In this document: piece after piece, positions 13,344-32,447 of the stretch
How positions within the stretch are numbered: the first letter of the stretch is position 1
Layout: each line of letters starts with the position of its first letter
NCBI GenBank assembly: GCA_937923965.1
Contig: CALDTL010000081.1
Location: forward strand, 1-45,376
Direction: 5' to 3'
From: an uncultured Caulobacterales bacterium
GTDB taxonomy: Bacteria > Pseudomonadota > Alphaproteobacteria > Caulobacterales > Maricaulaceae
Length of the DNA: 45,376 bases
Translations under genes and position numbers: made by a program
The notes under the pieces: model-generated
Database searches by the model: none
What the model was told of the DNA's origin: nothing
Seen by the model: only the letters and a program-made list of their open reading frames with translations

Positions 13344-13364
13344 AAAATGGTGCCCAGAAGAGGA
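13344..13364. repeat. Left attachment repeat of the island (att)
   Basis: The 21 bases are identical to 32357-32377 and consist of AAAA followed by the 3' end of tRNA-Leu on the minus strand (TGGTGCCCAGAAGAGGA). Only this 3' part of the tRNA is present here, as expected for the duplicated crossover segment after integration into a tRNA gene. Confidence 0.8.
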
Positions 13365-13595: not shown

Positions 13596-14855
13596 TCAAC
13601 TTAGAACTGGTCGCGAAATCTCGATTTCCTCAAGTCGTAAAGCGGAATTTTTAGCTTTACGCAGGACATTAAAATTTCCAGTTTTCGTTTTTCTAAGAAG
13701 TTGCAGTTGAATGGACGCGACGGTTTCCATCGTAACCCCTTTTGAAACATGCAGGTTGTTGTCTGCGTAGCCTTGTCCGAGTTCCGAGCTATTCAGGCAT
13801 TGCAAAATGGAGTCTTCAAGCGCCTTTTGATCCAACGGCGTAAAATTAAAACCTTTCAAGCCTTCACGTTCAGTCACATCGACAAAATCACCCATCATTG
13901 GATAAGCAGCTGGCGTCCCGTAGATCGCAGCTTGATGCAGAACACCTGAACTTCCAGTCGTGCTATCATAGTCAAAAATCGCGAGTTTTGCCTGTGTGAA
14001 GAATGTGGCGACATCTTCTTCTGCCACGTAACCGTGGAAAACGATATTTGCGTCCGCCTTGTACTTTGTTTCCAAGGACTTCAAATAACCAGGTGTTGCG
14101 GGGTGATCGCTCCCCCCGATAACCAACCTAATTTTTTGAACTTCTGTTCGAGATAGATTTAAATTTTGTATGGCTCCAATTGTCCGCTCAAGCCTTTTAT
14201 AGGTTCCAAATTTCCCCATTGTGACGATCGTGCACGGTCGCTCAGAGAGATTTGATATCTCAATATCAGAGGCCAATGGAAAAGAACCATGAGGCACCAT
14301 GAAGGCATTCTTGGCTTTATACTTATTCTTCAAAATATCCCAGAAACTATCTAACGTTACGGTCATAAATCCCGACATCAACATGGTTTTGGTCACGAAA
14401 TAACTAGCAGCGCCAACTAACCTTTGGCGGAATAGGCTTTGCGCAAGGTTCGTTTTGCTAAGATCAACGGCTTCGACCAGATTATGCATAATCACGCCCG
14501 AAGGTAGGCCCGATTTTTGGGAAACAGTTGGCGTTAGCAATCCAAGAGCAGCAGGAATCTCACTATCCCCAAAAGAGGCGGTTTGAAGATTATAGATGAC
14601 CCCTTCTGCCTTAGATGACTTGAGCGCGCGCAAAATATGAAAACCCGCGAGCGGATCATTGAACCGCCATGTGCGCTGGACCTCCACTTTAGAGCCTAGG
14701 TCAAGCTCTGGCAGGTCACCATGATAGTAATCTGCAATGACAATGATTTTTTCAATGTCTTGGCGCGCTGCAAACGCATTGACAAGGTGAAGCCCATACT
14801 CGTTCAAAGAACCTGCGCTTGGTGGAAAGGCGGTAACAATTGCGATAGTTTTCAT
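13596..14855 (-). CDS. Glycosyltransferase family 4 protein
   Basis: 419 residues. The N-terminal Rossmann half opens with IAIVTAFPPSAGSLNEYGLHLVNAF. The C-terminal half has TIVTMGKFGTYKRLERTI, the KYKADANIVFHGYVAEEDVATFF strand-helix, and a donor-site segment STTGSSGVLHQAAIYGTPAAYP, in which the usual EGFGLxxxEAMAxGxP is modified to a serine-rich form. GT4 enzymes are retaining transferases that use nucleotide sugars on the cytoplasmic side. No signal or membrane helix is seen. It is the third gene of the minus-strand operon, 23 bp after the glycosidase-like gene. Likely role: adding a sugar to the lipid-linked repeat of the island's glycan. Sugar and linkage unknown. Confidence 0.85.
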   Translation of the reverse strand: MKTIAIVTAFPPSAGSLNEYGLHLVNAFAARQDIEKIIVIADYYHGDLPELDLGSKVEVQRTWRFNDPLAGFHILRALKSSKAEGVIYNLQTASFGDSEIPAALGLLTPTVSQKSGLPSGVIMHNLVEAVDLSKTNLAQSLFRQRLVGAASYFVTKTMLMSGFMTVTLDSFWDILKNKYKAKNAFMVPHGSFPLASDIEISNLSERPCTIVTMGKFGTYKRLERTIGAIQNLNLSRTEVQKIRLVIGGSDHPATPGYLKSLETKYKADANIVFHGYVAEEDVATFFTQAKLAIFDYDSTTGSSGVLHQAAIYGTPAAYPMMGDFVDVTEREGLKGFNFTPLDQKALEDSILQCLNSSELGQGYADNNLHVSKGVTMETVASIQLQLLRKTKTGNFNVLRKAKNSALRLEEIEISRPVLS

Positions 14856-14878: not shown

Positions 14879-16390
14879 TTAGTTGTTGGGTTGAAGTGTG
14901 AGATACGCTGCATGTGCCTGAAGCACTTTTTGTGAAGGACGAGCTGAGCCATCCGCGCGAATGAGGCCGAAGTGTCTTTGCTGAGCTTTTCGCCAAGGCC
15001 GTCGACCGACGACATCACTCCCAACATGGTCAAAGTCGTTTAATGTCCACACAAACACGCCATCGGCGGCAATTGATTGCTGTAGCTGGCTTTCAAGACG
15101 CGCGGCCTGTTTATATTCTGCCGATTGGGTGGAACGAAATGGATTCCAAATTGTTGAGCCAATTTCTGTGATCATAACCGGCTTGTCGCCAGATTTAGTT
15201 TTTATGGCGTCCAAACGGTCAGCAAATCCTTCGACGTCTCCATATTCATGGTAAGTCACAAAATCGACGACATCTTTTAAACCGAGGGCGGAGTCTGGAT
15301 TTGACCACCCGACTGTTATCGGAACATTTGGGTAATGAATTTGAATGTGGCGCGCCAAGACCGTCAGCCACCCTTCGACAACACCCTGCCCCCAGGTCGG
15401 AAAATCTAAGTCGGCTTGATTTTTTATGTCGATACCCAAAATAGCGGGATGGTCGGAAACTGGGGCAATCACTTGGTCGATATGACCCACATCGCTTTCC
15501 AAATTAGACAACGTGTAATCTGGCCGAAGATCGAATAATGTAACGAGAACCTGGATGTTTTTTGCAGCGCAGAGATCCAGAAAAACACCAAGCTTCGTAT
15601 TGGCGTCCTCTTGCGTATCGCCACCCCCGAAGTAGTCGTGGTTCAGGAAAATGCGCACTGAGTTCACATTCATATCGCTGAGAGTTTCAAGGTCGGCCTT
15701 GATTTCCTCAACAGGAAACTCTGTCCAAAATTCTTTCCACGATGCGGATGCCGGATAATAATTTATACCTACCAAGTTGGTCGAAAATTTCTCAACAAAT
15801 GCGTCGTTACGGTTTCCTAAACTCATCAATTGCGTTTCAAGTATTTCTGATGCTTTTTGAGTCCAACCATTTTGTGTTTGATAGAATCTAAACAGTCGCG
15901 ACTCATAGGCCATCTCGTCGATAGATAATGTCGTGAGCTCAGAATGAGACGTAAAAGTCACGCGCAAGCTTTTCTCTTGTACATTTGTGACCCGTAAATC
16001 TTTATTGGTGTGAAGTTCACGGAACTCCCGCCCCAATCGAAACGCTACTTTGCAGGGCTTCGCGGATGACAGACAGGCTGCTTCTTTTGCTACTGTTAAC
16101 GCTTGCCCCGTGACGGCGATGTCTGAAGACGGCGTCCAATTAGGTTGTTCAAGTTCGGTAATGATTGTGCTGAGCTTCTCCCGGTCTTGAACAGGGAGCG
16201 TGAAAGCCCCCCCTACCCATCTCTGATCTGCTCGTGAAGTTGATGAAATTAAATGCTCATGCAAAAACTCATGTAATCCCGCTGGAGATTCGATGATGTT
16301 GGACACAATGCCTGCGAACACGACACCTGATAGGAGAATGCCAACGGACACTAGAATGCGCTTCATTTTATAAAGAGGCTTAAGCGTCAT
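14879..16390 (-). CDS. Membrane-anchored TIM-barrel glycoside hydrolase-like protein (GH5/GH2 type)
   Basis: 503 residues from the ATG at 16390, which overlaps the upstream stop as ATGA. A TTG eight codons earlier is rejected. A single membrane helix (about 10-32) anchors the protein with its bulk outside. Residues 60-200 look like a beta-rich region. A TIM barrel follows from about 205: GINYYPASASW, then VNSVRIFLNHDYF, IQVLVTLFDL, ILGIDIKNQADLDFP, VPITVGWSNPD, VDFVTYHEYG, KPVMITEIGST, GVFVWTLNDF. The glutamate of ITEIG (about 409) suits the nucleophile. At the acid/base position the expected Asn-Glu is Asn-Gln (KNQ, 323-325), so hydrolysis may be lost or altered. It might trim, or merely bind, the exported glycan. 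GH family assignment is tentative. Confidence 0.7.
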   Translation of the reverse strand: MTLKPLYKMKRILVSVGILLSGVVFAGIVSNIIESPAGLHEFLHEHLISSTSRADQRWVGGAFTLPVQDREKLSTIITELEQPNWTPSSDIAVTGQALTVAKEAACLSSAKPCKVAFRLGREFRELHTNKDLRVTNVQEKSLRVTFTSHSELTTLSIDEMAYESRLFRFYQTQNGWTQKASEILETQLMSLGNRNDAFVEKFSTNLVGINYYPASASWKEFWTEFPVEEIKADLETLSDMNVNSVRIFLNHDYFGGGDTQEDANTKLGVFLDLCAAKNIQVLVTLFDLRPDYTLSNLESDVGHIDQVIAPVSDHPAILGIDIKNQADLDFPTWGQGVVEGWLTVLARHIQIHYPNVPITVGWSNPDSALGLKDVVDFVTYHEYGDVEGFADRLDAIKTKSGDKPVMITEIGSTIWNPFRSTQSAEYKQAARLESQLQQSIAADGVFVWTLNDFDHVGSDVVGRRPWRKAQQRHFGLIRADGSARPSQKVLQAHAAYLTLQPNN

Positions 16391-17070
16391 GCGCCTGCCT
16401 TCCCCAATTCGCAAAGAGCAGAAAGATCGGAAGAAAAAACTTCTACATTTTTCAAAACCGCTCGAACTTTCAACGGAGCGATATATACCCGAGGGCAGAT
16501 ACTCATATACGACATGCTGCTGTTTGAGAGTTGCGCTGCTTCCGAGCGCTTAACCCCTGAGCTGTCAAACCAACTTAATGAGACGAGCGTTTGATCTGAT
16601 ATTGGATTACCAAAGGCGTCACTTAACGTCTCAGTCATGAGTTCGACAAAGTTAGGATTTCTTGCAGGTCTAACCTTTAACTTGAATGTTTTTGGTTGGG
16701 CCGCAACGATTAGCACAGGGGCATTGTTTGACACTAAATCGCTAGAAAGTGCCTTGAAGATCATCTCACCCGCTCTACGTTGTGCATTCACATCAAATGA
16801 CACCAATCCATTTGAAACCTTTCCCGATATTGTCATGGGAACGCCATCGGAAATATAAGTCAGCTGTATCGTTTCACCATGAACGCTACGTCCATGACCA
16901 TCGGTCATTTCAATCGTCACACTGATGTTACCCTCCGGGAGCGCCGTCTGCGGTCCCGCATAGACGTGTAGGCTGTTCGCAGCCGGCTGCGCCTGTGCAG
17001 TGGCATCAGAGAACCCGACACTCATTATGAGTGACAAGAGGTATACAGTTGCTTTCGTTCGGTTCGTCAT
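16387..17070 (-). CDS. Secreted Ig-like domain protein
   Basis: 227 residues from the ATG at 17070. The open frame continues upstream through the promoter region, but the signal peptide MTNRTKATVYLLSLIMSVGFSDATAQAQ begins here, and a sigma-54 element lies 36 bases before it. Two beta-sandwich units are likely: 35-125 (NISVTIEMTDGHGRSVHGETIQL, then VSNGLVSFDV) and 130-220 (FVELMTETLSDAFGNPISDQTLVSLSW). Both resemble bacterial Ig-like (invasin/Big_1-like) domains. No catalytic motif is present. It is the first gene of the operon and is coupled to the glycosidase-like gene by an ATGA overlap. A role in binding the glycan or partner enzymes in the periplasm is inference. Confidence 0.7.
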   Translation of the reverse strand: MTNRTKATVYLLSLIMSVGFSDATAQAQPAANSLHVYAGPQTALPEGNISVTIEMTDGHGRSVHGETIQLTYISDGVPMTISGKVSNGLVSFDVNAQRRAGEMIFKALSSDLVSNNAPVLIVAAQPKTFKLKVRPARNPNFVELMTETLSDAFGNPISDQTLVSLSWFDSSGVKRSEAAQLSNSSMSYMSICPRVYIAPLKVRAVLKNVEVFSSDLSALCELGKAGA

Positions 17071-17105
17071 AGGTCTTTTTCTTGCGAAGTGGCCTATGAA
17101 TGATT

Positions 17106-17119
17106 GCAATGGACATGCC
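17106..17119 (-). promoter_or_regulatory. Sigma-54 promoter of the minus-strand operon
   Basis: On the minus strand the sequence reads CGGCATGTCCATTGCA. The GG (17119-17118) and GC (17107-17106) are separated by exactly 10 bases, and GGCA and TTGCA match the -24/-12 consensus TGGCACG-N4-TTGCW. The GC is 35 bases before the ATG at 17070. Sigma-54 promoters need an AAA+ activator, and the island encodes one. Confidence 0.65.
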
Positions 17120-17135
17120 GCGAAAAAACGCCATG

Positions 17136-17206
17136 TTTTGCGTGCAAATTGAGCAAAATTGCAAAATGATCTTTGCGAAATGCGAATTTGTTTTCTGATT
17201 TGCAAA
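17136..17206. promoter_or_regulatory. Cluster of TTGC/GCAA operator-like sites between the divergent operons
   Basis: Within 71 bases lie TTTTGCGTGCAAA (17136-17148), TTGCAAAA (17159-17166), TTTGCGAAATGCGAA (17172-17186) and the perfect palindrome TTTGCAAA (17199-17206). They sit between the two oppositely directed sigma-54 elements. Related sites recur before the third operon at 22908-22945. Probable enhancer sites for the island's NtrC-type regulator; the assignment is inference. Confidence 0.55.
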
Positions 17207-17236
17207 GAAATCAGTCGAAACCGCAGGGAAAATAGC

Positions 17237-17250
17237 GGCCCAGCATTTGC
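17237..17250 (+). promoter_or_regulatory. Sigma-54 promoter of the GT2/flippase/GT-C operon
   Basis: The sequence CGGCCCAGCATTTGC has GG at 17237-17238 and GC at 17249-17250 with 10 bases between, and it matches GGC and TTGC of the consensus. There are 30 bases between GC and the ATG at 17281. The third promoter (23007-23020) has the same 30-base distance. The gene's ribosome binding site GGAG is at 17271-17274. Confidence 0.6.
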
Positions 17251-17280
17251 GTAGTTATCTCCGAAATATTGGAGATTAAA

Positions 17281-18453
17281 ATGACAAAACAAACAACTAC
17301 ATCTACTGAAACGTTCCTCCAAGAGCCAGCTTTAAAGCCGTCCACCTGGAAGCATGATAGAACATCAATTATCATTCCCTGTTATAATGAAGCCAACAGG
17401 TTGCATCTTGAAATCTTTCTAAACTTCGCCCGCGAGAACCCAAAAATATCCTTTGTATTTGTGGATGACGGATCAAAAGATTTGACAATTAGCTTGCTCT
17501 GCGGAGCCATGGCAGCGTTACCTAAACAAGTCGACGTCTTAACAATGGCGCGAAATGCAGGAAAAGCGGAAGCTGTCCGTCACGGGCTTAAATTTGCAGC
17601 CGAACGCGGCGATAAATATATCGCGTTTTTGGACGCTGATCTTGCAACACCGCTAAATGCAATCAACGACTTCATCTCAGTTGCAGATCGCTTAGACAAC
17701 ATTGATGTCGTTTTCGGATCCCGTGCTGGCGGACTGGGTCGTCGCGTCTATCGAGACATTCATCGCAAAATGATCTCTCTGGTTTGCGCGTCGATGGGTC
17801 GATTGGCGACAGGTTTAGCGTTGAAAGACACGCAATGCGGCGCGAAATTATTTCGCAACAACGAACATCTAATCAACTGCTTAGATGCACCTTTCACTGC
17901 AGGTTGGCTTTTTGATGTCGAATTATTCCTGAGAATTTCTAACCCAAACCGGCGGGAACGAAAAAACTTCTTCGAATACCCGGTTCTTGAGTGGACAGAA
18001 ATCCCAGGGTCCAACATCAAATTTTCTGATGTTATCAAAGGCGGTCTGAAAATGACGTCGCTAATTTTTAGTCAATGGAAAATCAGAGCAAGGTTTCAAA
18101 ACAGACGCACTTTGTCTTGCCCTTCATTGACCCAACATCTGCGCTCTGGAGAGGCTTTAACCACGCAGAGCATTCGCGCGATGGGAGCCATAGTTTCAAA
18201 TGAGAAACGCCATATCACTTTAGATTTTTCCAATGTTAAAACGTTAGGCCCATCTGTTTTCACCACTCTTACAGAGGCCTGCGAAGAGTTTTTGGCGCTC
18301 GGGAAAGAGGTGTCAATTTATCTTCCAGATGATTCATATATTTTGTCAGCCGCACGGCGATCTTCGATCACAGCCCTTTTTCACTGCACCATTGTTAATC
18401 GTCTTCCGACCCACTTTACTGATAACAATCGTTTTTCGTTGTCGGAGGCTTAA
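17281..18453 (+). CDS. GT2 glycosyltransferase with C-terminal STAS-like domain
   Basis: 390 residues from the ATG at 17281 with GGAG six bases before it; an upstream TTG overlaps that site and is rejected. Residues 28-260 are a GT-A fold like dolichyl-phosphate glucosyl/mannosyltransferases: TSIIIPCYNEANR, VDDGSKD, ARNAGKAEAVRHG, the metal site LDADLATP near 118, VFGSRAGG, and DTQCGAKLFR. There are no C-terminal membrane helices. From about 285 to 380 the sequence has a STAS pattern: a beta strand HITLDFSNVKTLG, helix PSVFTTLTEACEEFLALGK, strand EVSIYLP and helix SYILSAARRSSITALF. The usual phosphorylatable D-S-S-G is G-P-S-V. It likely loads a sugar onto polyprenyl phosphate. The STAS part may dock the enzyme or sense a regulator. 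Confidence 0.8.
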   Translation: MTKQTTTSTETFLQEPALKPSTWKHDRTSIIIPCYNEANRLHLEIFLNFARENPKISFVFVDDGSKDLTISLLCGAMAALPKQVDVLTMARNAGKAEAVRHGLKFAAERGDKYIAFLDADLATPLNAINDFISVADRLDNIDVVFGSRAGGLGRRVYRDIHRKMISLVCASMGRLATGLALKDTQCGAKLFRNNEHLINCLDAPFTAGWLFDVELFLRISNPNRRERKNFFEYPVLEWTEIPGSNIKFSDVIKGGLKMTSLIFSQWKIRARFQNRRTLSCPSLTQHLRSGEALTTQSIRAMGAIVSNEKRHITLDFSNVKTLGPSVFTTLTEACEEFLALGKEVSIYLPDDSYILSAARRSSITALFHCTIVNRLPTHFTDNNRFSLSEA

Positions 18454-19743
18454 ATGTCACGATCTCTCAAACTTCCCATACAGGCGTTCCGAACAAACGC
18501 TTTACTTGGGCCAGCTGCAGTTTTGTTTATTTCAGCGAATATCGCGAATGCTGCCAATCTAGTTTTCAATATGCTCTTTGCCCGAATGATGGGACCCGCA
18601 GCATTTGCTGACCTCACACTTTTACTTACGCTAAAGCTTGGCATCTTGTCATTCCTAGGCGCGCTTCAATTCGCGTTTGCCGAGTTAGCTGCAAAGGAAA
18701 GTAAAACTCAACGAAGCCGTAGGCGTGCGCGTGCGCTTTCATGGAGAAGTCTCAAATTTTCTTTACCTGCGATGTTCCTTGTCATCGCGCTGGCGAATTA
18801 CATTTCTGGGGTTTTGAACTTCTCTTCGCCGTTGGCTCTTTTCATCCTGGCTCTTGCTATTCCATTTTTTCTACCAATGGTGATTTATAGAGGCCTCACG
18901 CAAGGCTTGATTGATTTACCAAAGATCATTCTCTCAATACAATCTGAGTGGATAATTAGACTTTTGGGTAGCCTGATACTCTGGAAAATGGGGTTCGGAT
19001 TAGCTGGCATTGCCGCAGCTGTTGGGCTTTCAATCATGGCAGGGTTTATTTTTTCAACGCGCAAAGAGGACCTAAAGTCCTTTGGTCCCCGCGAAATGCC
19101 TACCCTAGATCCGCAGACAAGGGCGCTTGGCATCATCGCCCTGCCATACCTGATTTTACAAATTGCTCAAGTCTTGGTCTTAGACAGTGACATCCTTATC
19201 GCAAAGGCGAGTTTTTCACCTGAGACAGCAGGTCTCGTGGCGGGATTGCTTCTCATCCAACGCGTTTTCTTTTTCGCTTTTCTATCTTGTTCAACGATCC
19301 TTCAGCCACTTGTTGCAAAGCAGAAAGACGTTCAGAAATCACCTCAGGAACTGCTAATACTCTTAGGTGCAATCTCTATAATTACCGTCGCTGCAATCGC
19401 GATTATTCTACCGAACTCCGATCTGATTGTACGCGTCATGCTAGGGGATGAATATCTAGCATTGTCTTCAATCGTTTGGATAAGCGCTCTTACGGGTGCG
19501 GTCTTCATCGGCAGCCACCTTTGCGCGATTTACCAAATTGCCAAGGGCAAGAGTTTTGCCGCACTGGTCGTTTTATTCTTTGGCGCCATTCAACTCATTT
19601 CACTCTCGGCGGTTAATCACTTCTTTCCTGACATAGGGTTACACAGCTACTTCAGTATGAAGTTGCTTATTCAAGTTGCATGCGCGGCAACTTTGATCGG
19701 AATTATTTTGATGCCATTGAGAAAAGAAAAACCAATTCCATAA
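18454..19743 (+). CDS. Polysaccharide flippase (Wzx/MOP superfamily)
   Basis: 429 residues with about 12 hydrophobic helices and short basic loops. The pattern begins AAVLFISANIANAANLVFNMLFARMMGPAAFADLTLLLTL, typical of MOP-superfamily polysaccharide exporters. Such proteins flip lipid-linked oligosaccharide across the inner membrane. The ATG follows the GT2 stop codon directly, with no gap. The GT-C gene starts one base after its own stop. This places flipping between sugar loading and a periplasm-side transfer step. Family call is supported by topology and N-terminal pattern only. Confidence 0.8.
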   Translation: MSRSLKLPIQAFRTNALLGPAAVLFISANIANAANLVFNMLFARMMGPAAFADLTLLLTLKLGILSFLGALQFAFAELAAKESKTQRSRRRARALSWRSLKFSLPAMFLVIALANYISGVLNFSSPLALFILALAIPFFLPMVIYRGLTQGLIDLPKIILSIQSEWIIRLLGSLILWKMGFGLAGIAAAVGLSIMAGFIFSTRKEDLKSFGPREMPTLDPQTRALGIIALPYLILQIAQVLVLDSDILIAKASFSPETAGLVAGLLLIQRVFFFAFLSCSTILQPLVAKQKDVQKSPQELLILLGAISIITVAAIAIILPNSDLIVRVMLGDEYLALSSIVWISALTGAVFIGSHLCAIYQIAKGKSFAALVVLFFGAIQLISLSAVNHFFPDIGLHSYFSMKLLIQVACAATLIGIILMPLRKEKPIP

Positions 19744-19744
19744 A

Positions 19745-22700
19745 ATGACAGCAAGATCGTGGACATATCTAGCGATCTTACTGGCACTCATGTTTCATGG
19801 GGCGCTCTTGCCGTTCACCTATGGGCAAACATATGACTCCTATATCCATATGTTTTTTGGCAACCATTATCTAACGTCTTGGTTCGATCCTTGGGAAACA
19901 CGGTGGTATACTGGCTTTACAGTTACAGCCTATCCACCGGGCAGCCATCAAGCCTTGGGCGTGTTGATGCGCTTCATGGATATGCGCATCGCATTTATAG
20001 TGCTGCAACTTTTGGCTATCGGCATTCTTATTATTGGAGTGTTCAGATTCAGCCGTTTATGGGTGAATGATAAGGCCGCGTCATATGCAGCAATGCTATG
20101 CGCATTCTCAACCAGCATTTCGGAAACGCTGCATATTTTCGGGCAGTTACCTACACTGCTTTCAATCGCGCTTTTCCTGAACGCAATTCCCCACATATCA
20201 AGCTGGATTGAACATGGCCGAAAGAGAGATTTTGTTTTAGGTCTTTTTATAACAGCGGCGACAACCTCAGTTCACCATGTCACGCCGTTGTTTGGAACTG
20301 TCTTCTTTGTGGCACCGATTGGCATCGCAGCCCTCTTAGCTAATTTGAAACGACGTGGGCCTTCTAAACCCCATGGAAAACTAGCCTATTTGAAGTGGGC
20401 CTCGCCTGCCTTGATACGTGGCATTATAATGGGATTGGGAATGTTGTTTCTAATCGTCACAATCGTTTTCCCATACTGGCATTGGTCCATTACCGACCCG
20501 ATCACCCAAGTTAGTATTCCGCACGGCAGCCGCGAAAATTTTATCGCGAAGCCGAATTTAGGCTTGATGTTCTTTGTCATTCCTTGGGGCATGCTAATCG
20601 CGGTCGTTCCCTATGTTGTATTAAAGTCAATTAGAACGGCGCTGTGGCCCTTAGGACTTTCCGTTTTTATCGCATTGTTTTTGGGAACGGGCGGAACTAC
20701 GCCCTTTCCGCGTATTCTTCTTGGTCCTGCATTCGAAATTCTGACATTGGATAGGTTCACCTTCTGGGCGTCAATTTTGATTTTACCTTTCGCAGGCCTG
20801 GCGGTGCAAAGCCTGTGGGAAGGGCGAGGAAAAATATTGATAGATCGTGCTTTTGGCTCTTTTTTAAGCCGGGCCGCCCTAGTCCTAATGCTAGTAAGTT
20901 ATGTTGGTCTCGCCGTTGGAACAGCCCTTCTTCCCACTTTTCGACCCACCCAGCCCGACTTCATTGATCCTGCGCCAATTGTCACATTTATGGATGAAGA
21001 CCGTCACTCAGATTGGCGTTACCTGACACTCGGATTTGGGGATCAATTCGCCTATCACAGCGCTCTGATCAACGCCGAGTCCGTTGACGGGAATTATCAT
21101 TCGGCAAGACGACTTCCAAGTTTGATGAACTACTCCGTAGAGCGACTAGAAAATTCAAAATATATGGGAGTCCCGGGCCTCGCCTCGCTCAATCAGTTTC
21201 TCACGAATGCTGAAAGGTTTCATTTGAAATATGTGTTCTCAAATGACGAGTTCTATGATCCGGTTCTACACTATACAGGATGGAACCAAGTCACACGTCT
21301 GAATAACGGAATACGCGTTTGGGAAAAACCTGACATCACCCCTTTGCCTGTCGTACGGCCCCGAAGGGAATTGCCCGAGTACCAAAAGCTTATGTGGGGA
21401 ACTTTGCCAATCGGATCCTTAATTTTAGGATTACTGACCTTAATTGGGCTTGCTTTACGGCAACAGCTGATATCATCTATATCAACCCCTTTTCTACAAA
21501 ATACGCCTTCGCTCTATATGGCGATCAAGGTTCCTGAACCTGGACCAAATTTGACCGTCGACATCCTCACTCAAGCCCCATCAAGTCCTTCGGCATGGAT
21601 GCCGCCTAGTGCCATGACCTGGGGGGTAAGAGTCCTGCCTATTATTGCTGCCTTTATGGCGGCGATAATCATTAGCAAAACCATACAAAATCAACGCAAG
21701 CCTTTAATGCCCGAAACGGTTGTAGAGCGTTTCTACCAGCACTTGGACTTCCGTGAGACTGAGCAGGCCTTCTCCTTGCTTGTCGCCGATCCGGAACTGG
21801 ATTACGGACAGTTTTTAAAAATCCAGAAACTCACAGGCGGCCTTGTCCCGTCCTTTGGAAAACTCACATCTGTCGCCACTATAAATGTACAAAAATTAGG
21901 GAAAGGACAGGTTAGAGTCAGCTCAAAACTTACATACCTAACATCTATCGGAATACGTCCAGTCATTGCCGAAATGACTTTGCTGAAAAACGCTAATGAA
22001 GTTTGGCAAATCAAATATGAGCCCTCCGACAAGAATTATACGCCAAGTCTTGTAACCAGAGTAAGTGCACCACAGTTTCGTGATCTTACAGGTCAAAAAA
22101 ACGTAAATCCAAACGACCCTGTTCAAAGACTAGCACGTCCTCAAATCGAGCTGATGGCAGCAGAACTTGTCGAAGAAAACGGCAGATTATTCGTTATTGG
22201 CCGAATTAAGAACCTCTCGGAGTTTCCAGCCTGTACAAAAGTTTTAGCACAAACAGTCGACCCCATATCGGAAACCAAATTCAAACAACATGCAGGTCGT
22301 ATTGGTCCGCATCGACTTCTCCCCGGAGAAAGCTCCGCTTTTCGAATTGATTTTGAGGGTTACCTTAAGATTCAAGATCAACCGTTTAACGCGGCTTACA
22401 ATCCAGATGAATTCAGCTTGCCAGAATTTAGCAGCCTTCCCTCTGACGTCGACCTCTCTATCTCCGCAACGGTGTGTTCACCCGCATATTATAAGTCGAT
22501 CACCTTTTCAGACATTGGCGTTTCGAAAACGCAAAACGACCACGCCCTTAACGTTACCGTCTCCAACACGGGTACTGAAATTGTAAGCACACTCCAGCTC
22601 AAACTATCTTACGCGGACGCTGATGGTCGTCTTATATGGGTAGAGCCATACTACCTTCAGAATAACCTAATACCAGGCGAAGTAAGACGTATTCAAATCC

Positions 22701-22873
22701 CCCTATCAGAAACATCTGGCACACATGTCTCGTCACCATATCGCATGCAGATAAACGGACACAAGGTCGCCATAAATTCGAGTTCTATCTGGCCAATAGG
22801 TATCAAGCTTAAGCCAAGCGGCACGCGCGTCATGATTGACTATGACGCAATGCTGTATCGACCACTGGACTAA
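19745..22873 (+). CDS. Large GT-C-like membrane protein with periplasmic C-terminal modules
   Basis: 1042 residues. The first ~560 hold about a dozen helices with the GT-C-type first loop TYDSYIHMFFGNHYLTSWFDPWETRWYTGFTVTAYPPG, resembling the membrane proteins called 6-pyruvoyl-tetrahydropterin-synthase-related. Such proteins use polyprenyl-phosphate sugars outside the membrane. A further helix (about 628-645) is followed by an NTF2/DUF4878-like unit (655-770, VVERFYQHLDFRETEQAFSLL). Two FxLYD/Ig-like units follow (about 795-900, LFVIGRIKNLSEFPACTKV; and 915-1000, ALNVTVSNTGTEIVSTLQLKL). The combination is unusual. Likely role: polymerising or transferring sugars to the glycan in the periplasm. 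The function is inferred from context. Confidence 0.65.
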   Translation: MTARSWTYLAILLALMFHGALLPFTYGQTYDSYIHMFFGNHYLTSWFDPWETRWYTGFTVTAYPPGSHQALGVLMRFMDMRIAFIVLQLLAIGILIIGVFRFSRLWVNDKAASYAAMLCAFSTSISETLHIFGQLPTLLSIALFLNAIPHISSWIEHGRKRDFVLGLFITAATTSVHHVTPLFGTVFFVAPIGIAALLANLKRRGPSKPHGKLAYLKWASPALIRGIIMGLGMLFLIVTIVFPYWHWSITDPITQVSIPHGSRENFIAKPNLGLMFFVIPWGMLIAVVPYVVLKSIRTALWPLGLSVFIALFLGTGGTTPFPRILLGPAFEILTLDRFTFWASILILPFAGLAVQSLWEGRGKILIDRAFGSFLSRAALVLMLVSYVGLAVGTALLPTFRPTQPDFIDPAPIVTFMDEDRHSDWRYLTLGFGDQFAYHSALINAESVDGNYHSARRLPSLMNYSVERLENSKYMGVPGLASLNQFLTNAERFHLKYVFSNDEFYDPVLHYTGWNQVTRLNNGIRVWEKPDITPLPVVRPRRELPEYQKLMWGTLPIGSLILGLLTLIGLALRQQLISSISTPFLQNTPSLYMAIKVPEPGPNLTVDILTQAPSSPSAWMPPSAMTWGVRVLPIIAAFMAAIIISKTIQNQRKPLMPETVVERFYQHLDFRETEQAFSLLVADPELDYGQFLKIQKLTGGLVPSFGKLTSVATINVQKLGKGQVRVSSKLTYLTSIGIRPVIAEMTLLKNANEVWQIKYEPSDKNYTPSLVTRVSAPQFRDLTGQKNVNPNDPVQRLARPQIELMAAELVEENGRLFVIGRIKNLSEFPACTKVLAQTVDPISETKFKQHAGRIGPHRLLPGESSAFRIDFEGYLKIQDQPFNAAYNPDEFSLPEFSSLPSDVDLSISATVCSPAYYKSITFSDIGVSKTQNDHALNVTVSNTGTEIVSTLQLKLSYADADGRLIWVEPYYLQNNLIPGEVRRIQIPLSETSGTHVSSPYRMQINGHKVAINSSSIWPIGIKLKPSGTRVMIDYDAMLYRPLD

Positions 22874-22907
22874 ATTAGCTTTGCATTCTGACATTCAAAA
22901 AGACTGT

Positions 22908-22945
22908 TTTTGCATATTGCAAAACGCAAAATGCATATTGCAAAA
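22908..22945. promoter_or_regulatory. Tandem palindromic operator upstream of the third operon
   Basis: A 17-base perfect palindrome TTTTGCATATTGCAAAA (22908-22924) is followed by a second copy of its core: TGCATATTGCAAAA occurs at 22911-22924 and 22932-22945, exactly 21 bases apart. That is two helical turns, so two dimers would bind the same face. The sites are about 62-99 bases upstream of the sigma-54 element at 23007, a usual enhancer distance. Confidence 0.6.
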
Positions 22946-23006
22946 TTTTGGCTAAATTTACATTCGATTAACTATCTAACCCACTGTTTTTGCGGAAAGC
23001 TGAATT

Positions 23007-23020
23007 GGTCTCTCGATTGC
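23007..23020 (+). promoter_or_regulatory. Sigma-54 promoter of the TolC-like/MBOAT/SGNH operon
   Basis: The sequence TTGGTCTCTCGATTGCAA has GG at 23007-23008 and GC at 23019-23020 with 10 bases between. TGG and TTGCA match the -24/-12 consensus. There are 30 bases between GC and the ATG at 23051, the same as in the other plus-strand operon of the island. Confidence 0.6.
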
Positions 23021-23050
23021 AATGACTCTCCCGTAAAACGGAGTCGTCAA

Positions 23051-24535
23051 ATGACAATTGAGCAAAAAAAATCAAATTTTAAAACGGCTCTGATTGGGTT
23101 CGGCCTTATTAGTGCCTTGGCGCTAGGAGGATGCGCTTCGACAGCCGTCAAGTATGATTCCACAAATGTGTCTGGCTATACTGATAGCACATTGAGACCT
23201 CAGGCTGTTCCGCTTGAAACAAGTGTCCCGCTCAGCATAGATGAGGTCAGAATCCGTACCCTCGCTCATAATTCCGAGTTTGCGCGCGCCCAGAATCAAT
23301 TGATGGAAACCGTTAGAAAAGCGGGGATGCGCGGCAAAGACTTCCTTCCACAAGCTTATGCAAGCAGTTATGGGACATGGAGAAATAATACGAGTGCGTC
23401 TGTTGGTAAGAAGGTCGATGATACTTCTGGCACGATGCCCAAAGATTTTTACACGGCGCAAGATCAAGCCGTTGCGAGGTCAAACCTAACCACAAGCTGG
23501 GACCTCCTAGAAGTCGGCTTGAGTGGCTTCAAAGCTAATCGCCGCGTAATCAATGCTTATTCGCAAAGTGAGCAAAACCAATATCTTTGCAATAAAATGA
23601 TGGTCGATGTCGAAAACGCGTATTGGCGTGCGGTCGCATTTGAACAGGCAGAAAAGAAATCCGCATGGTTAAAAAGCCGGGTTGCTTACGCCCTCGATCT
23701 GTCGCTGCAACGTGCAGATCAAAACCCTGAAACAAAGCTCCAAGAGCTGATGTTCCAGCGGGAATTGATCGACATCAACCGTTGGTATCAATCGCTATAC
23801 CGTTCTTTGCTTTCAGCAAAGCCTGAACTTGCCCGTCTTATGAATGTTCCCGCTGGAACAGAATTCGATTTAAAAGCAACGCGCCTACCTTCGAATTTAG
23901 GGGAACTCGGCAAACAAAATCCGTTGGAACTTGTTACGACAGCTTACCAAAATCGTCCAGAAATTCGCCAGGCTCTATACAAGACTGATTTGACCAAATT
24001 GAAGAATGAAGAAGACCTGTGGCGGCACCTGCCGGCGATGCGCTTTTTCCTTGGTGCAAACCACAATACAAATAGCTTCGTGTTGAACCAAGATTTTGCG
24101 TCCGCAGGTCTAAACTTGAGCTGGGATCTTTTACGTTTGGGCCAAATTGGTGAGACGAAACGTAATGGCAAACTCGCACTTGCCGAACAACAAAGACAAA
24201 CCGAGATTCTCGCAAGCGCAGTCATGGCGCAGGTCATGATTGCCCGTGAGCAAATGCACAAATTGAATTACGATCTAACGCTCGCATGGAAGGCCTTATC
24301 TATCCAAGGTGAAATAACGGATGACCTAAATACAGATGTAAAATCTGGCGCAAAGCCGGAAACATATTTGGTCAAAGAAGAGCTTATGCGGGAGTTATCC
24401 TTCATTCGCGAACAAATGGCGCGCGCTGAATTGCATACAGCGAAAGCGCGTCTGGAGCAGAGCATTGGCATTGTTCCGACCTGCCAAGCACCAACGCAAC
24501 TTCAGGCGAACGTTCCCTCGCTGACCGCACTTTAG
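23051..24535 (+). CDS. TolC-family outer-membrane lipoprotein
   Basis: 494 residues from the ATG at 23051. The open frame extends into the promoter, but the lipoprotein signal starts here, with LALGGC giving lipidated Cys28, and GGAG lies eight bases before. The rest has the twofold outer-membrane efflux pattern: repeat 1 with RTLAHNSEFARAQNQL and NLTTSWDLLEVGLSGFKANR, and repeat 2 with NRPEIRQALYK and GLNLSWDLLRLGQIGETKR, each followed by long coiled-coil helices. Such proteins form trimeric channels through the outer membrane. No membrane-fusion or ABC partner is encoded in the island. It could export the glycan or a linked protein. It is the first gene of the third operon. Confidence 0.82.
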   Translation: MTIEQKKSNFKTALIGFGLISALALGGCASTAVKYDSTNVSGYTDSTLRPQAVPLETSVPLSIDEVRIRTLAHNSEFARAQNQLMETVRKAGMRGKDFLPQAYASSYGTWRNNTSASVGKKVDDTSGTMPKDFYTAQDQAVARSNLTTSWDLLEVGLSGFKANRRVINAYSQSEQNQYLCNKMMVDVENAYWRAVAFEQAEKKSAWLKSRVAYALDLSLQRADQNPETKLQELMFQRELIDINRWYQSLYRSLLSAKPELARLMNVPAGTEFDLKATRLPSNLGELGKQNPLELVTTAYQNRPEIRQALYKTDLTKLKNEEDLWRHLPAMRFFLGANHNTNSFVLNQDFASAGLNLSWDLLRLGQIGETKRNGKLALAEQQRQTEILASAVMAQVMIAREQMHKLNYDLTLAWKALSIQGEITDDLNTDVKSGAKPETYLVKEELMRELSFIREQMARAELHTAKARLEQSIGIVPTCQAPTQLQANVPSLTAL

Positions 24536-24550
24536 ATCATTGGAATAACA

Positions 24551-26020
24551 ATGCTCTTTACTGACCCCGTATTTCTGACAAAATTTTTACCATTGGTCCT
24601 TTTGGGCTTCTACGCAACACTGTTTTCCAAAACACGTTGGCATAGCCAGATCCTTTTGATTGGGGCCAGCCTCGTTTTCTACAGCTGGTTCAAATCAGAA
24701 TATCTTATTCTTTTAGTCGGGTCGATGGGTGTCAACTACCTTCTTGCGAAACACATTTTGGCGCAGCCCGGCACTTCAAAATCCAAACAGATATTGGTCA
24801 TCGGGATCGTAGCAAACCTATTGCTACTAGGCGTATATAAGTACCTTGGGTTCCTGACGGTCAACTTTAACGCGCTATTCGATTTGGGCTTACCTGATCC
24901 GAAGTTACTCTTGCCTTTGGCAATCTCGTTTTTCACCTTCCAGCAGATTTCATACCTCTGTGACAGTCATGCGGGGAAAATGGATCCAGCTTCACACACC
25001 CCGCTTGAATATGCGTTATTCGTCACATTCTTTCCGCAGTTAATCGCGGGACCAATTGTCCATCACGCCGAGATGATGCCGCAGTTTCGGAAAATCATTA
25101 CCCCAAGTGCTCGTGCGATTATGTTCTGCGAAGGCATTTGTCTATTCGCACTGGGCCTATTCAAGAAACTTGCGATTGCAGACTCTATCGCCCCATATGC
25201 GAATGAAGTTTTCTCCTCTGTCGATAGCGGCGCAGTCGTCACCAGCATAACCGCATGGGGTGGTGCCCTCGCCTATACATTCCAAATCTATTTCGACTTT
25301 TCGGGTTATTCAGATATGGCAATTGGCCTTGGTCTGCTGTTCGCAATTCGTCTGCCTTGGAACTTCAATTCGCCATATAAATCCGAGAATATGTCAGAGT
25401 TTTGGCGTCGCTGGCACATGACACTCAGCCGGTGGCTGCGTGACTACCTTTACATCCCGCTTGGCGGAAATCGCCACGGCAAGGTTCGCCAGTATATCAA
25501 CAATTTCGCGACAATGGTGCTTGGTGGTCTATGGCACGGTGCACATTGGAATTTCCTTATTTGGGGTGCGCTGCATGGCTTCTATCTCATCGTGAACCAA
25601 TTCGTTCGTGCCATCGCTAAATTTTTCGGAGTTCTTGAAATAGTTGAAACCGCGAAAGCCATTCGGATCAGCTCTTGGGCAATCACATTCTTAGCCGCCG
25701 TTGTCGCTTGGGTCTTCTTCCGTGCAACAACGACGTCTGGCGCAATTTCGATGACGCTGAGCATGTTCGGATCAGTGGCAGAGGGAGCGGTCCATATGCC
25801 TGCAACTGTGCAGACAATCCTGTGGGGTACGCTTGCGGCCATATCCGCATTTATCTTGCCAAACACCAAAGAGATATCAGAATTGTTTGAAAAAGATTTA
25901 CTGAAACGGTCTTCGGCGCTCATTGGTGCCTTAGGCATTGCGTCAGGAATAGCAGCATCCGCAGCCTTTCTAGCATCTCTCAGCCTGACCCAATCCCCAT
26001 TCCTATACTTCAACTTCTAG
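24551..26020 (+). CDS. MBOAT-family O-acyltransferase (AlgI/DltB-like)
   Basis: 489 residues with about 11 hydrophobic helices. The family signatures are the FFPQLIAGPIVHHAEMMPQF loop, the FWRRWHMTLSRWLRDYLYIPLGGNR segment, and the catalytic histidine region GGLWHGAHWNFLIWGALHG. AlgI-like proteins move an acyl (usually acetyl) group across the inner membrane to a partner that modifies an extracellular polymer. The next gene, an SGNH-like membrane protein, is the expected partner, as in AlgI/AlgJ, PatA/PatB and DltB/DltD. It starts 15 bases after the TolC-like gene, in one operon. Acetylation of the island glycan is a strong inference. Confidence 0.92.
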   Translation: MLFTDPVFLTKFLPLVLLGFYATLFSKTRWHSQILLIGASLVFYSWFKSEYLILLVGSMGVNYLLAKHILAQPGTSKSKQILVIGIVANLLLLGVYKYLGFLTVNFNALFDLGLPDPKLLLPLAISFFTFQQISYLCDSHAGKMDPASHTPLEYALFVTFFPQLIAGPIVHHAEMMPQFRKIITPSARAIMFCEGICLFALGLFKKLAIADSIAPYANEVFSSVDSGAVVTSITAWGGALAYTFQIYFDFSGYSDMAIGLGLLFAIRLPWNFNSPYKSENMSEFWRRWHMTLSRWLRDYLYIPLGGNRHGKVRQYINNFATMVLGGLWHGAHWNFLIWGALHGFYLIVNQFVRAIAKFFGVLEIVETAKAIRISSWAITFLAAVVAWVFFRATTTSGAISMTLSMFGSVAEGAVHMPATVQTILWGTLAAISAFILPNTKEISELFEKDLLKRSSALIGALGIASGIAASAAFLASLSLTQSPFLYFNF

Positions 26021-26040
26021 TCCGAGTTTTGGACCCCATT

Positions 26041-28140
26041 ATGACCCATCCTATCAACAACACCTCATCCACCGTCAATGAAACTCTCGCAACTAGAACT
26101 CTTGCGAAGCATATTTGCACATTTCTTGCTGGTATGGTCGGCACTTCACTGCTCTGTCTGGGGGCTTATGCTTTGACGGTCGATCGTTTGATTGAGCGTT
26201 CCGCCGTTCCAGACACCTACAAATGGTTTCTTTTGCAAGAGACACCCGGTCCACGAATAATATTTGAATCTGGATCAAATTCACACCACGCGATTGACAC
26301 AGATGCAGTCGGCGCAGCTCTCGGACGAACGGCGATCAATATCGCGGATAACGGCGGATATGCTTTGGAAGACAAAATAACGCGATTAGAAACATTTACG
26401 CAAGCAGGTGACGTTGTTGTCCTCCCCCTGGAATGGACATTCTACCATCGCGAAAAACTCACTGATAATTACGTCAATACTCTTTTTGACAGCAATCGGA
26501 ATTACTATCATTCTATGCCTCTACATAAGCGCATACAACGCGCCCTAAGCCTTCCGCCAGCGACGGTCATATCAAAAATTAGAGATCAGCAAGGAACCGA
26601 GAAGCAATCAAATGAATCCCCAGCCCAAGAGCTATTTGTCTCTGCTTTAACACAACCAACAGGGCATCAATCCCGATCAACATCTTCAGGTCCAGGCCCC
26701 GGTGTCACGGAACAAAGCTGTGACGATTACATTCTCGGGAAGACCCAAACCAGAGAGAAATTGAAGTTGGGCAAAAACATAAAACCAGCTCTTGAGCGGC
26801 TCAAAAAGCTGAAGGCGCGCGGAATAAATATACATTTCGCATGGCCAGTTTTAGCTGGAGAAGGCTGTCTCACAGCTCCCGCATATTTTGAAGGCTTTCG
26901 TGCGGAGATCGAAGCGGCAGTCAATGGGGCGGGTTTTGAATTTCTCGGCACTCCCAGCCAAAGTCTTTATGATGAAGCCTATCGGGATGACACTCCGTAT
27001 CACATCATCACGGCGGCCACTGACATCCATACCCAACAGATGATTGGATTTCTGAGGACGCAAGGATATGGCACCACAGGCGAACCACTGAATATAACTA
27101 ATTTTGCACGCCATCGTTTGCTTGAATTAGAGCTCGCAGAAGCCAGTGAGTTAAATCAAACCCCACTTGAATTTGGAAGAACCGTGTCTTTTGATAATCC
27201 GGAACACCGCGATCAAATCGATTTTACAGCGGGTTGGTGGGCATTCGAAGCTAATGGCCGTTGGATGCGAGATAATCGCGCCATGTTCCGTGTGACACTT
27301 CCAAAGGACTTACCCCCAAATGCCGTCTTGAAAATTCAAGGCATGACGAAATCCGAACGTCCAGAACGAGCAAACATTTCCGTAAATGGAAATCTGGTGA
27401 GTTCTGGATTGTTCGGGGAGAGTGCTCCCCTTTCGGTTCCTGTGACCGGCTTGCCCCAAGGCAAAGCACTCTCCATCTTTATTGATCTGCCAGAGGCAGG
27501 TGACCCAAAGAGCCCAAAGGATATTGGAGAAAGCCAAGATGCGCGTTCGATGACACTCCACTTGCAAACTATGGAATTAATGCAGGCTGCGGACCCTCAA
27601 ATCATAGAGCAATCAACCATTGAAAAAACACCTCTTGTTCAGGCTTTCGAGACAATCGAAAGAGCCATGTCTTCCAACAGCGCAGTCTTCAACGTCTCTT
27701 CAATTCCAAAGACCAGCTCACTCTCGATTCCGGCTGTTCCCATTCATCAACCTAAATTAACTCATGGCAACGGTTGGTGGGCACAAGAGGCAGAAGGCCG
27801 TTGGATGCGAAATGAAGAAGCAAGTTTAAGCCTAATAATACCAGAAACATTAGCGACAGGGTCACCAAATAACTATCTTCTTGAATTATCTGGAGTTTTT
27901 TTCTCAGATACGCCTAGCGCTATAGCTGCAACTATTGATGGAAAAGTAGCGGCCTTAGCCGAGGTCACAGATGAAGGGACTATCACTATTAGATTCACCA
28001 GTTCAAAGACCGCAGGGAAGATAGATCTGGCACTAAAGTTATCAGTGCCAAAGGTACGAAGCCCGAAGGATTTAGGCCTTTCTACGGATGACCGTACACT
28101 CACGTATTTTCTGAAGTCGGTAGAGTTAGTCGCAGCTTAA
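26041..28140 (+). CDS. SGNH-like acyltransferase partner with two C-terminal repeats
   Basis: 699 residues from the ATG at 26041; a TTG four codons upstream is rejected. One membrane helix near 25-50 is followed by a domain with an SGNH-like first block (RIIFESGSNSHHAIDTD) and a possible later histidine block near 310-325 (DDTPYHIITAATDIHT). Residues about 393-516 and 575-697 are duplicates of a beta-rich module beginning GWWAxEAxGRWMR and ending SPKDxGxSxDxR with an acidic-aromatic tail. The module is like ones attached to bacterial membrane glycosyltransferases and may bind glycans. It probably acts with the MBOAT protein to acylate the polymer. The catalytic triad was not proved. Its stop overlaps the stop of the convergent regulator gene. 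Confidence 0.7.
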   Translation: MTHPINNTSSTVNETLATRTLAKHICTFLAGMVGTSLLCLGAYALTVDRLIERSAVPDTYKWFLLQETPGPRIIFESGSNSHHAIDTDAVGAALGRTAINIADNGGYALEDKITRLETFTQAGDVVVLPLEWTFYHREKLTDNYVNTLFDSNRNYYHSMPLHKRIQRALSLPPATVISKIRDQQGTEKQSNESPAQELFVSALTQPTGHQSRSTSSGPGPGVTEQSCDDYILGKTQTREKLKLGKNIKPALERLKKLKARGINIHFAWPVLAGEGCLTAPAYFEGFRAEIEAAVNGAGFEFLGTPSQSLYDEAYRDDTPYHIITAATDIHTQQMIGFLRTQGYGTTGEPLNITNFARHRLLELELAEASELNQTPLEFGRTVSFDNPEHRDQIDFTAGWWAFEANGRWMRDNRAMFRVTLPKDLPPNAVLKIQGMTKSERPERANISVNGNLVSSGLFGESAPLSVPVTGLPQGKALSIFIDLPEAGDPKSPKDIGESQDARSMTLHLQTMELMQAADPQIIEQSTIEKTPLVQAFETIERAMSSNSAVFNVSSIPKTSSLSIPAVPIHQPKLTHGNGWWAQEAEGRWMRNEEASLSLIIPETLATGSPNNYLLELSGVFFSDTPSAIAATIDGKVAALAEVTDEGTITIRFTSSKTAGKIDLALKLSVPKVRSPKDLGLSTDDRTLTYFLKSVELVAA

Positions 28141-31748: not shown

Positions 31749-32351
31749 TTATTCTTGGTCTATCGCCCAATTCCCCTTGTTCGTCCCTGTCTCTATAAGA
31801 GCCATGCAAAGGAGTGCGCTTGGTCGATTGAGGCCATCAAAAACATCTGGCGAGAGTATGCGTGACCTGACCCAGTCGTCTTCAAAAGGCAAAACCTTCG
31901 TTATGATCTTGTCTTTAAACCTCATATTACGAAAGGGGTTCTCACGCTCTTCTTCGCCAATGTGCTCAAAATAGCGGCGGTAGAGTTTGCGCAAACTGCC
32001 CAAGTCCTTGTTCCCGCTACTGCCGCTCATTGGTTTGGAACCGTCCTTAGGATGGATGCGTTCGTGCCAAAATTTCCGAACGGCATGGGCGTGTTCGCGG
32101 GTAATGTCTCTCATATCTATTTCGCCGTTTATGGTGACGAAGTTCACCACTGCGCGGCGTTTGATTTTTGAAAAGCTCTTCACTTGCTCCGGTGATTTAC
32201 TGGCCAGTTCGTCGGCGACGATCTCGGAGAGATATAAGTCCATAGCCTGCGTGATGGTCGCGGAGGGCGTTGAATACTGCCTAACAACGCATCTGCGTCT
32301 CGTTCTTCCTTCGGCTGCTAAGCTTTTCAGAGGCTTACGCCACTTGCTATG
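31749..32351 (-). pseudogene. Truncated tyrosine recombinase (island integrase remnant)
   Basis: The frame is open for 201 codons from just after a stop at 32352-32354 beside the tRNA. The only ATG is at 32243, well inside the domain (the similarity begins earlier, with VVRQYSTPSATITQAMDLYLSEI). It includes a core-binding domain, with helices such as HAHAVRKFWHERIHP and LGSLRKLYRRYFEHIGEEERENPF. It then enters the catalytic domain at LLCMALIETGTNKGNWAID. There the expected first catalytic arginine block (TGxRxSE) is missing, and the frame ends. Normal integrases are about 380-400 residues; the remaining His-x-x-Arg and Tyr boxes are absent. It therefore lacks both a good start and its active site. 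Its location next to the tRNA-Leu 3' end supports its being the former island integrase. Confidence 0.75.
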
Positions 32352-32356
32352 TTAGG

Positions 32357-32377
32357 AAAATGGTGCCCAGAAGAGGA
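32357..32377. repeat. Right attachment repeat, overlapping the tRNA-Leu 3' end (att)
   Basis: Identical to 13344-13364. Its first four bases lie just outside the tRNA and the rest is the tRNA 3' end (CCA, acceptor strand and part of the T arm). This restores an intact tRNA after integration, as in other tRNA-directed islands. Confidence 0.8.
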
Positions 32378-32447
32378 CTCGAACCTCCACGTCCATACGG
32401 ACACTAGCACCTGAAGCTAGCGCGTCTACCAATTCCGCCATCTGGGC
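32361..32447 (-). tRNA. tRNA-Leu (anticodon CAG)
   Basis: An 87-base class II tRNA on the minus strand. The acceptor stem GCCCAGA pairs with TCTGGGC, followed by an A and a gene-encoded CCA. The D arm contains GGTAGACGCG. The anticodon arm is CTAGC-TTCAGGT-GCTAG with CAG in positions 34-36, read for CUG. A long variable arm (GTGTCCGTATGGAC) and the T arm GGTTCGAGTCC are present. The island is inserted at its 3' end. Confidence 0.95.

Follow-up and report, generated by a model that had tools for sequence, protein, structure and literature searches.

The DNA analysed here (the window, 45,376 nucleotides) is a 45-kb contig (C81) within the 2.8-Mb draft genome of an uncultured Caulobacterales bacterium, a marine stalked form. 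It carries an island of three three-gene operons, a response regulator gene and a hybrid kinase gene, which is located between two identical 21-bp direct repeats. The left repeat (13344–13364, plus strand) marks the island boundary, and the right repeat (32357–32377, plus strand) lies over the 3′ end of a tRNA-Leu(CAG) gene (32361–32447, minus strand). The arrangement of promoter and enhancer elements in front of the operons suggests that all three are controlled by the regulator encoded on the island itself, a LuxO-like activator of sigma-54 promoters.

The operon p227–p511–GT4 is located on the minus strand. Its first gene, p227 (16387–17070), encodes an exported protein with a signal peptide recognized by eye and a weak Big_1 match below the cut-off. 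The second gene, p511 (14879–16414), has no Pfam match, and its product has by eye the look of a glycoside-hydrolase-type TIM barrel, a putative designation. The third gene, GT4 (13596–14855), encodes a group 1 glycosyltransferase (PF00534). The operons GT2–p429–p1042 and OEP–MBOAT–p703 are located on the plus strand. The former encodes a family 2 glycosyltransferase (GT2, 17281–18453; PF00535), a polytopic membrane protein without a Pfam match that is putatively flippase-like as judged by eye (p429, 18454–19743), and a large membrane protein with a weak PTPS_related match (p1042, 19745–22873; PF10131, 19.5 bits, below the cut-off of 26.4). The latter encodes an outer membrane efflux-type protein (OEP, 23051–24535; PF02321), a membrane-bound O-acyltransferase (MBOAT, 24551–26020; PF03062, with a match of 180 bits to the DltB model TIGR04091, below its cut-off), and an exported MBOAT partner, putatively acyltransferase-like by eye, with no Pfam match above the cut-off (p703, 26029–28140). 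These genes are followed on the minus strand by the response regulator gene (P0001, 28137–29591), whose product contains a REC domain, an AAA+ domain with the GAFTGA motif and a Fis-type helix-turn-helix (HTH) with the stretch SPSTIYRK, and by the gene of a hybrid sensor kinase with the domain order PAS-HisKA-HATPase-REC-HPt (29600–31639).

Putative sigma-54 promoters of the three operons

A sequence-only reading of the window had proposed that each of the operons is preceded by a sigma-54 promoter with a GG-N10-GC element. All three elements were found where that reading had placed them, at 17119–17106 on the minus strand and at 17237–17250 and 23007–23020 on the plus strand, and counting in the sequence returned the proposed GC-to-ATG gaps of 35, 30 and 30 bases. 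The gene order confirms that each element lies upstream of the first gene of a three-gene operon. Matches on the GG side and to TTGC had also been pointed out, and indeed all three elements fit GGY-N7-TTGC. The −24/−12 promoter of the p227–p511–GT4 operon is GGCATGTCCATTGC (17105–17121, minus strand; GG at 17119–17118, GC at 17107–17106), that of the GT2–p429–p1042 operon is GGCCCAGCATTTGC (17235–17251, plus strand), and that of the OEP–MBOAT–p703 operon is GGTCTCTCGATTGC (23005–23021, plus strand).

The pattern GGY-N7-TTGC occurs 25 times over both strands of the window, and a simple sigma-54 consensus with weights of our own gave many window sites an equally high score. Single promoter matches therefore mean little; the consensus score alone was dropped as evidence, and with a pattern this common, conservation was examined. 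Within the two intergenic regions, each extended by about 30 bases at either end, lie four GGY-N7-TTGC matches (the three promoters and one at 17072), a number that was reached in 1 of 5000 dinucleotide shuffles. A scan for sigma-70-type promoters gave one match, at shuffle level and inside GT2, and none in the third region.

A search with the regulator protein found matches at E ≤ 1e-120 in 21 of the 119 family genomes, the window's own included. Regions were taken from 19 of the 20 other regulator genomes, and the operon set was present in 12 loci of 11 genomes, which together with the window form a 13-locus footprint. Outside of it remained G013 and G107, where the regulator contig is without the promoter regions, G127, where the regulator is at a contig edge, and G089, G141, G102, G137, G147 and G062, which are without a homologous operon set. 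Locus L045, without the OEP gene, was omitted from the alignment of the third promoter. The p1042 proteins of the footprint loci share 54–95% identity with that of the window. In the aligned intergenic regions the GG-N10-GC element is invariant at the minus promoter (13/13), at the plus promoter (13/13) and at the third promoter in all 12 loci having the OEP gene. When the alignment columns were shuffled, the observed number of fully conserved elements was reached in 0 of 20000 cases for the divergent region and in 19 of 20000 for the third promoter. The mean majority fraction per alignment column is 0.68–0.70. As a side observation, locus L035 carries a tandem pair of LuxO-like regulators (16152–19429; 87% and 71% identity to that of the window) beside a kinase.

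The prediction was extended to promoters held out from the footprint. The p1042 alignment was used to scan the named genomes, which yielded 53 loci; the 12 that repeat footprint loci were excluded from both the held-out and the control analysis. Seven held-out loci (L072, L077, L079, L085, L116, L123 and L124) provided 16 usable promoter regions; L081 and L082, whose promoter is off the contig, were left out of the count. Two of the seven, L072 and L124 (corresponding to G002:C102 and G013:C9), belong to the same genus as the window. All 16 regions contain the promoter element, 17–64 bases upstream of where the aligned protein starts. The strict enhancer pattern described below was found on the strand scanned in 14 of them, and four of the 16 have an additional match further upstream. 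Control regions were taken from related clusters in whose examined stretch no regulator match was present, with titles such as Rhodobacteraceae, Saprospiraceae and Anaerolineales; regions shorter than 200 bases or with a match start beyond residue 39 were excluded. The element occurs in 2 of 92 such regions, where our own chance estimate is about 3. The contrast shows that the promoter site is not a general feature of these gene types; as the control regions precede genes of any of five types, also genes within operons, it is not a matched promoter comparison. Together, the conservation of GG-N10-GC and the held-out promoters bear out the proposal of three sigma-54 promoters, with transcription, phosphorylation and RpoN dependence as its predictions.

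A related core, comprising p1042 and part or all of the set p511, GT4, GT2 and p429, is found in the loci L087–L122, apart from the regulator-bearing L094, L104, L115 and L116. The contig titles of these loci name Rhodobacteraceae, Saprospiraceae, Chitinophagales, Anaerolineales, Acidimicrobiales and Trueperaceae. Among the 12 Rhodobacteraceae loci, some of them assigned by genus, eight have a nearby hybrid-kinase match of 32–38% identity, and none of these eight has a regulator match of at least 150 bits.

Putative LuxO-type enhancers

The upstream activating sequence (UAS) of LuxO is given as TTGCAWWWTGCAA in PMC10162802. LuxO-type enhancers were not included in the sequence-only reading. 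The divergent intergenic region contains a central enhancer TTTGCGAAATGCGAA (17172–17186), common to both promoters; in the window the distance of its centre is 58 bp to the plus GG and 60 bp to the minus GG. It follows the palindrome pattern T(T/C)GC-N5-GC(A/G)A. The distance to the plus GG is 58 bp in 13/13 loci, and that to the minus GG is 59 bp in 11/13 and 60 bp in 2/13. The central palindrome thus looks like one shared enhancer at the midpoint of the divergent region. A second palindrome lies 19–20 bp beyond the first in six of the 13 loci (L040–L045); the candidate at this place in the window is TTTCTGATTTGCAAA (17192–17206), 20 bp from the central one.

Two further enhancers precede the third promoter. 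Enhancer 1, TTTGCATATTGCAAA (22909–22923), holds a perfect LuxO UAS, TTGCATATTGCAA, at 22910–22922, and the distance of its centre to GG is 91 bp in 11/12 loci and 90 bp in the remaining one. Enhancer 2, ATGCATATTGCAA (22931–22943), is located 21 bp from enhancer 1 and 70 bp from GG; it is a strict palindrome in 4/12 loci and is represented by a near match in the alignment in the others. The draft genome contains 24 TTGCRNNNYGCAA sites, and only the one at 22910–22922 matches TTGCAWWWTGCAA; the palindromes at the divergent pair are near-perfect. For 15 of the 24 UAS-like sites the neighbouring loci were obtained: the two at the third promoter are paired with a promoter, the other 13 are unpaired. 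Between the enhancers and the −24 box of the third promoter lies a conserved block, TTAACTATCTAACCCACTGTTTTT (22968–22991), whose columns are largely invariant in the 12 loci and which has the form TTAACYAYCTAA-N5-TG(T/A)(T/A)TTT or close to it. This block is a candidate IHF site: in 7/12 loci it fits the IHF consensus in the same place with no more than one mismatch.

A promoter with a palindromic enhancer within 40–130 bp occurs three times in the window, each time at one of these three promoters. In 300 shuffles of the whole window at most two such pairs were obtained (mean 0.25), and in 5000 shuffles of the two intergenic regions at most one. Searching the own genome for a composite pattern of UAS, gap and promoter yielded ten matches (4 forward, 6 reverse), two of them at the island promoters; the backward pattern yielded 0 and 2, respectively. 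The LuxO-type enhancers tie the three promoters to the island activator.

Activator and sensor kinase

The only regulator of the island had been described in the sequence-only reading as an NtrC-type activator with a partner kinase. The product of P0001 is indeed an NtrC-family sigma-54 activator encoded next to a hybrid kinase, but it is closer to LuxO than to NtrC. It scores 552.5 bits with the LuxO model NF041946, 389 with NtrC and 385 with PrsR (TIGR02915) among the best 25 of 113 NCBIfam matches. With 385 bits it stays below the cut-off of 502.6 for the PEP-CTERM regulator PrsR. The closest solved structure by sequence is LuxO (5ep0). The HTH stretch SPSTIYRK is also found in LuxO-like proteins of Aeromonas and Azospirillum; the two of these that were scanned are likewise under the LuxO cut-off. 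By its similarity scores, motifs and domains, P0001 looks like a LuxO/SypG-like activator, and by the curated cut-off it is not LuxO. Among the 12 island proteins scanned, several of which are without any Pfam match, Pfam recognized no other regulator, in agreement with the proposal of a sole one.

Sigma54_activat is matched 14 times in the draft genome, in several cases weakly. Across the loci of these matches, SPSTIYRK is present in the island regulator only. A GAFTGA-like loop was seen in the island regulator and in a protein on contig C155 (GSFTGA), among the six proteins whose frames were read. The kinase–regulator operon has no GGY-N7-TTGC within 300 bp upstream in 13/13 loci (80 bp in L038 and 117 bp in L040), the set being the footprint loci without L035 and with L034; the regulators are therefore not apparently self-activated through this pattern. 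A lone palindrome is present upstream of the operon in 2/13 loci.

More distant LuxO-like regulators, sharing 46–48% identity with that of the window, are encoded in G141, G102, G137, G147 and G062 (L047–L051, L164). A second, divergent rpoN match (rpoN2) is present on the regulator contig of all five genomes; in three of them it adjoins the regulator, and in two it is about 8 kb off. The two annotated loci, L047 and L050, have polysaccharide genes among the neighbours. A LuxO-type UAS precedes the kinase–regulator operon in 5/5 of these genomes and a strict −24/−12 site in 3/5, while rpoN2 itself is preceded by a UAS followed by −24/−12 in 2/5. A private sigma-54 with positive feedback is possible in these five genomes.

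Possible mobility and gene content of the island

A 164-aa open reading frame (31749–32243, minus strand) adjoins the tRNA-Leu gene and resembles by eye the N-terminal part of a tyrosine recombinase; the Pfam scan gave nothing above the cut-off for it. Other tRNA genes, for arginine and threonine, lie near the kinase end in two relatives (L033, 1105–1181; L043, 18112–18186). In the stretches compared, no direct repeat of the tRNA-Arg or tRNA-Thr gene was found to flank the cluster in the relatives G014 and G097. Since the repeat at the 3′ end of tRNA-Leu bounds the island and other tRNA genes are near the cluster in the two relatives, there is a hint that the island is mobile and moves between tRNA sites. 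The MBOAT–p703 pair was not found beside OEP in L037 and L040–L044, and the acylation module therefore looks optional. Among the named relatives found by the cluster search are Hellea, Algimonas and Litorimonas cladophorae, the last of which belongs to the Robiginitomaculaceae (Alphaproteobacteria); the cluster of L. cladophorae KCTC 23968 is in locus L073.

Proposed regulatory circuit

We propose that the island is a self-contained sigma-54 circuit in which a LuxO-like activator acts on three polysaccharide operons, and we estimate the probability of this at about 87%. The promoter and enhancer elements, with their conservation, fixed spacing and occurrence alongside the regulator, and the protein domains make the island look like such a circuit; binding, phosphotransfer, RpoN dependence, activation, signal and product belong to its predicted part. 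The PAS hybrid kinase, which has a receiver and an HPt domain of its own, would phosphorylate the LuxO-like response regulator, which would then bind the LuxO-type palindromes (TTTGC-N5-GCAAA). The one palindrome at the midpoint would serve two divergent operons firing in opposite directions. For the operon of export and acylation this role would fall to the pair of palindromes located 70 and 91 bp upstream of the third −24 box, and DNA bending, perhaps by IHF, may close the loop there. Through its GAFTGA motif the AAA+ domain would open the RpoN polymerase at the three −24/−12 promoters, and the polysaccharide would be made, exported and acylated together.

Several observations weigh against this proposal. 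The plus and the third promoter deviate from the sigma-54 consensus in its CACG portion, the window copy of the second enhancer between the divergent promoters is degenerate and does not fit the palindrome pattern, and the IHF-like site of the window has two mismatches. P0001 does not reach the curated LuxO cut-off of 800. The contrast between held-out and control regions is softer than the numbers, because operon-internal control genes would lack promoters anyway. Across whole genomes the composite pattern is not specific: in G015, without a regulator match at E 1e-120, it gave 7 and 4 matches against 2 and 1 for the backward pattern. Since congeners without the regulator have such matches, the pattern is informative beside the operons and not as a genome-wide regulon finder.

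The supply of sigma-54 also has to be weighed here, as the own draft genome gave no sigma-54 match. Of the 60 genomes in the relatives search, 57 have such a match; it is missing from the own draft and from two congeners whose genomes are incomplete (78% and 65%). It is also present in 14 of 15 regulator-bearing genomes (G032 is in both searches). Among the 11 footprint genomes besides the window's own, 10 have a match and G133 (81% complete) has none. The surroundings of rpoN in G010 match contig C63 from its first base, starting about 600 bp past the rpoN end; on the other side of rpoN, at about 5 kb, G010 is matched by the very beginning of contig C56. Because the ends of C63 and C56 flank the rpoN position of G010, the gene was probably lost in an assembly gap; such a gap would explain its absence and is no proof of its presence.

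The promoters might truly be of the sigma-54 type and yet be driven by a host activator, with the island regulator acting elsewhere. The draft genome does have another strong activator, the GSFTGA protein on C155, and two activators can share enhancers, as PMC10162802 describes for LuxO and SypG at qrr1. This explanation is nevertheless unlikely: the enhancers fit the LuxO motif, the SPSTIYRK stretch is unique to the island regulator among the genome matches, and the sites occur in 16/16 held-out promoter regions of clusters with such a regulator and in 2/92 regions of related clusters lacking it. It is still harder to believe that the regulator, bound to the palindromes, mainly represses or competes while the sigma-54 promoters fire on a different input. 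The LuxO structures in the PDB are named 'Putative repressor protein luxO', which would agree with such a role, but the island regulator retains GAFTGA and the Sigma54_activat domain, and the sites lie at enhancer distance (58–91 bp from the −24 box) and not over the promoter. That the three elements are chance matches in AT-rich intergenic DNA can be practically dismissed. The bare pattern is common and many sites score equally well, as described above, but chance would not account for the conservation, the held-out prediction, the fixed spacing and the outcome of the shuffle tests. Nor is recent common descent alone likely to lie behind the alignments, given a protein identity as low as 54% and the mean majority fraction of the columns.

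The proposed self-contained circuit is similar to the control of the Syp polysaccharide locus of Vibrio fischeri. In that system SypG, a LuxO-related response regulator, acts with sigma-54 promoters of this locus and several sensor kinases such as SypF act upstream of it (PMC10162802, PMC12369376); SypG also works at the LuxO-type UAS on qrr1 (PMC10162802). The island likewise combines a LuxO-related regulator with sigma-54 promoters on polysaccharide operons. The SypG motif is quoted in PMC10162802 as TTCTCANNNTGMDW, and the enhancers of the loci are 1–2 mismatches from it, those of the window two; no match with fewer than two mismatches was found in the two promoter regions of the window. 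This closeness is due to the overlap of the LuxO and SypG motifs, and the window promoters fit the LuxO palindrome better, perfectly at 22910. In contrast to Syp, the island is found in another bacterial class and with other polysaccharide genes, and the kinase and the regulator are its only two recognized regulators.

LuxO of the Vibrionaceae is the best NCBIfam and PDB match of the island regulator and uses the same UAS palindrome. The island regulator differs in falling below the LuxO equivalog cut-off and in having structural operons as its putative targets. LuxO is fed by LuxU, a separate protein, whereas for the island regulator this would be done by a kinase that itself includes an HPt domain. 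The Rfam scan of the window matched nothing but tRNA, so no Qrr-like small RNA target is seen. The PrsK/PrsR system, described in PMC9850573 and PMC1569441, is likewise a two-component sigma-54 control of genes associated with PEP-CTERM and exopolysaccharide. The island regulator is distinguished from PrsR by its scores (385 against 552.5 bits for LuxO), and no other PEP-CTERM models are among the NCBIfam matches listed for 10 island proteins (for the regulator, the best 25 of 113). The titles and abstract openings returned by our open-access literature searches contain no mention of such a circuit in algae-associated stalked Alphaproteobacteria.

A wider interpretation can be put forward tentatively, and we hold it to be somewhat less probable than an even chance. 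LuxO-type activators with TTGCA-N3-TGCAA operators might be an old, mobile control module of surface polysaccharides across the Proteobacteria, of which Vibrio quorum sensing would be one special use. Here the module would be carried on tRNA-borne islands, with an enhancer that is symmetric and shared. The second LuxO-like circuit of sister genera would have a private, divergent sigma-54 gene located in or near its polysaccharide locus; where a LuxO-type promoter precedes this gene, as in some cases, a switch with positive feedback would result.

The operator motif is published and there are one activator and three targets, so that a few reporters are enough for testing the circuit. The findings suggest that LuxO-type DNA recognition is not confined to the quorum sensing of Vibrio, and that an island can bring its own sigma-54 wiring, for which the host may be needed mainly to provide RpoN.

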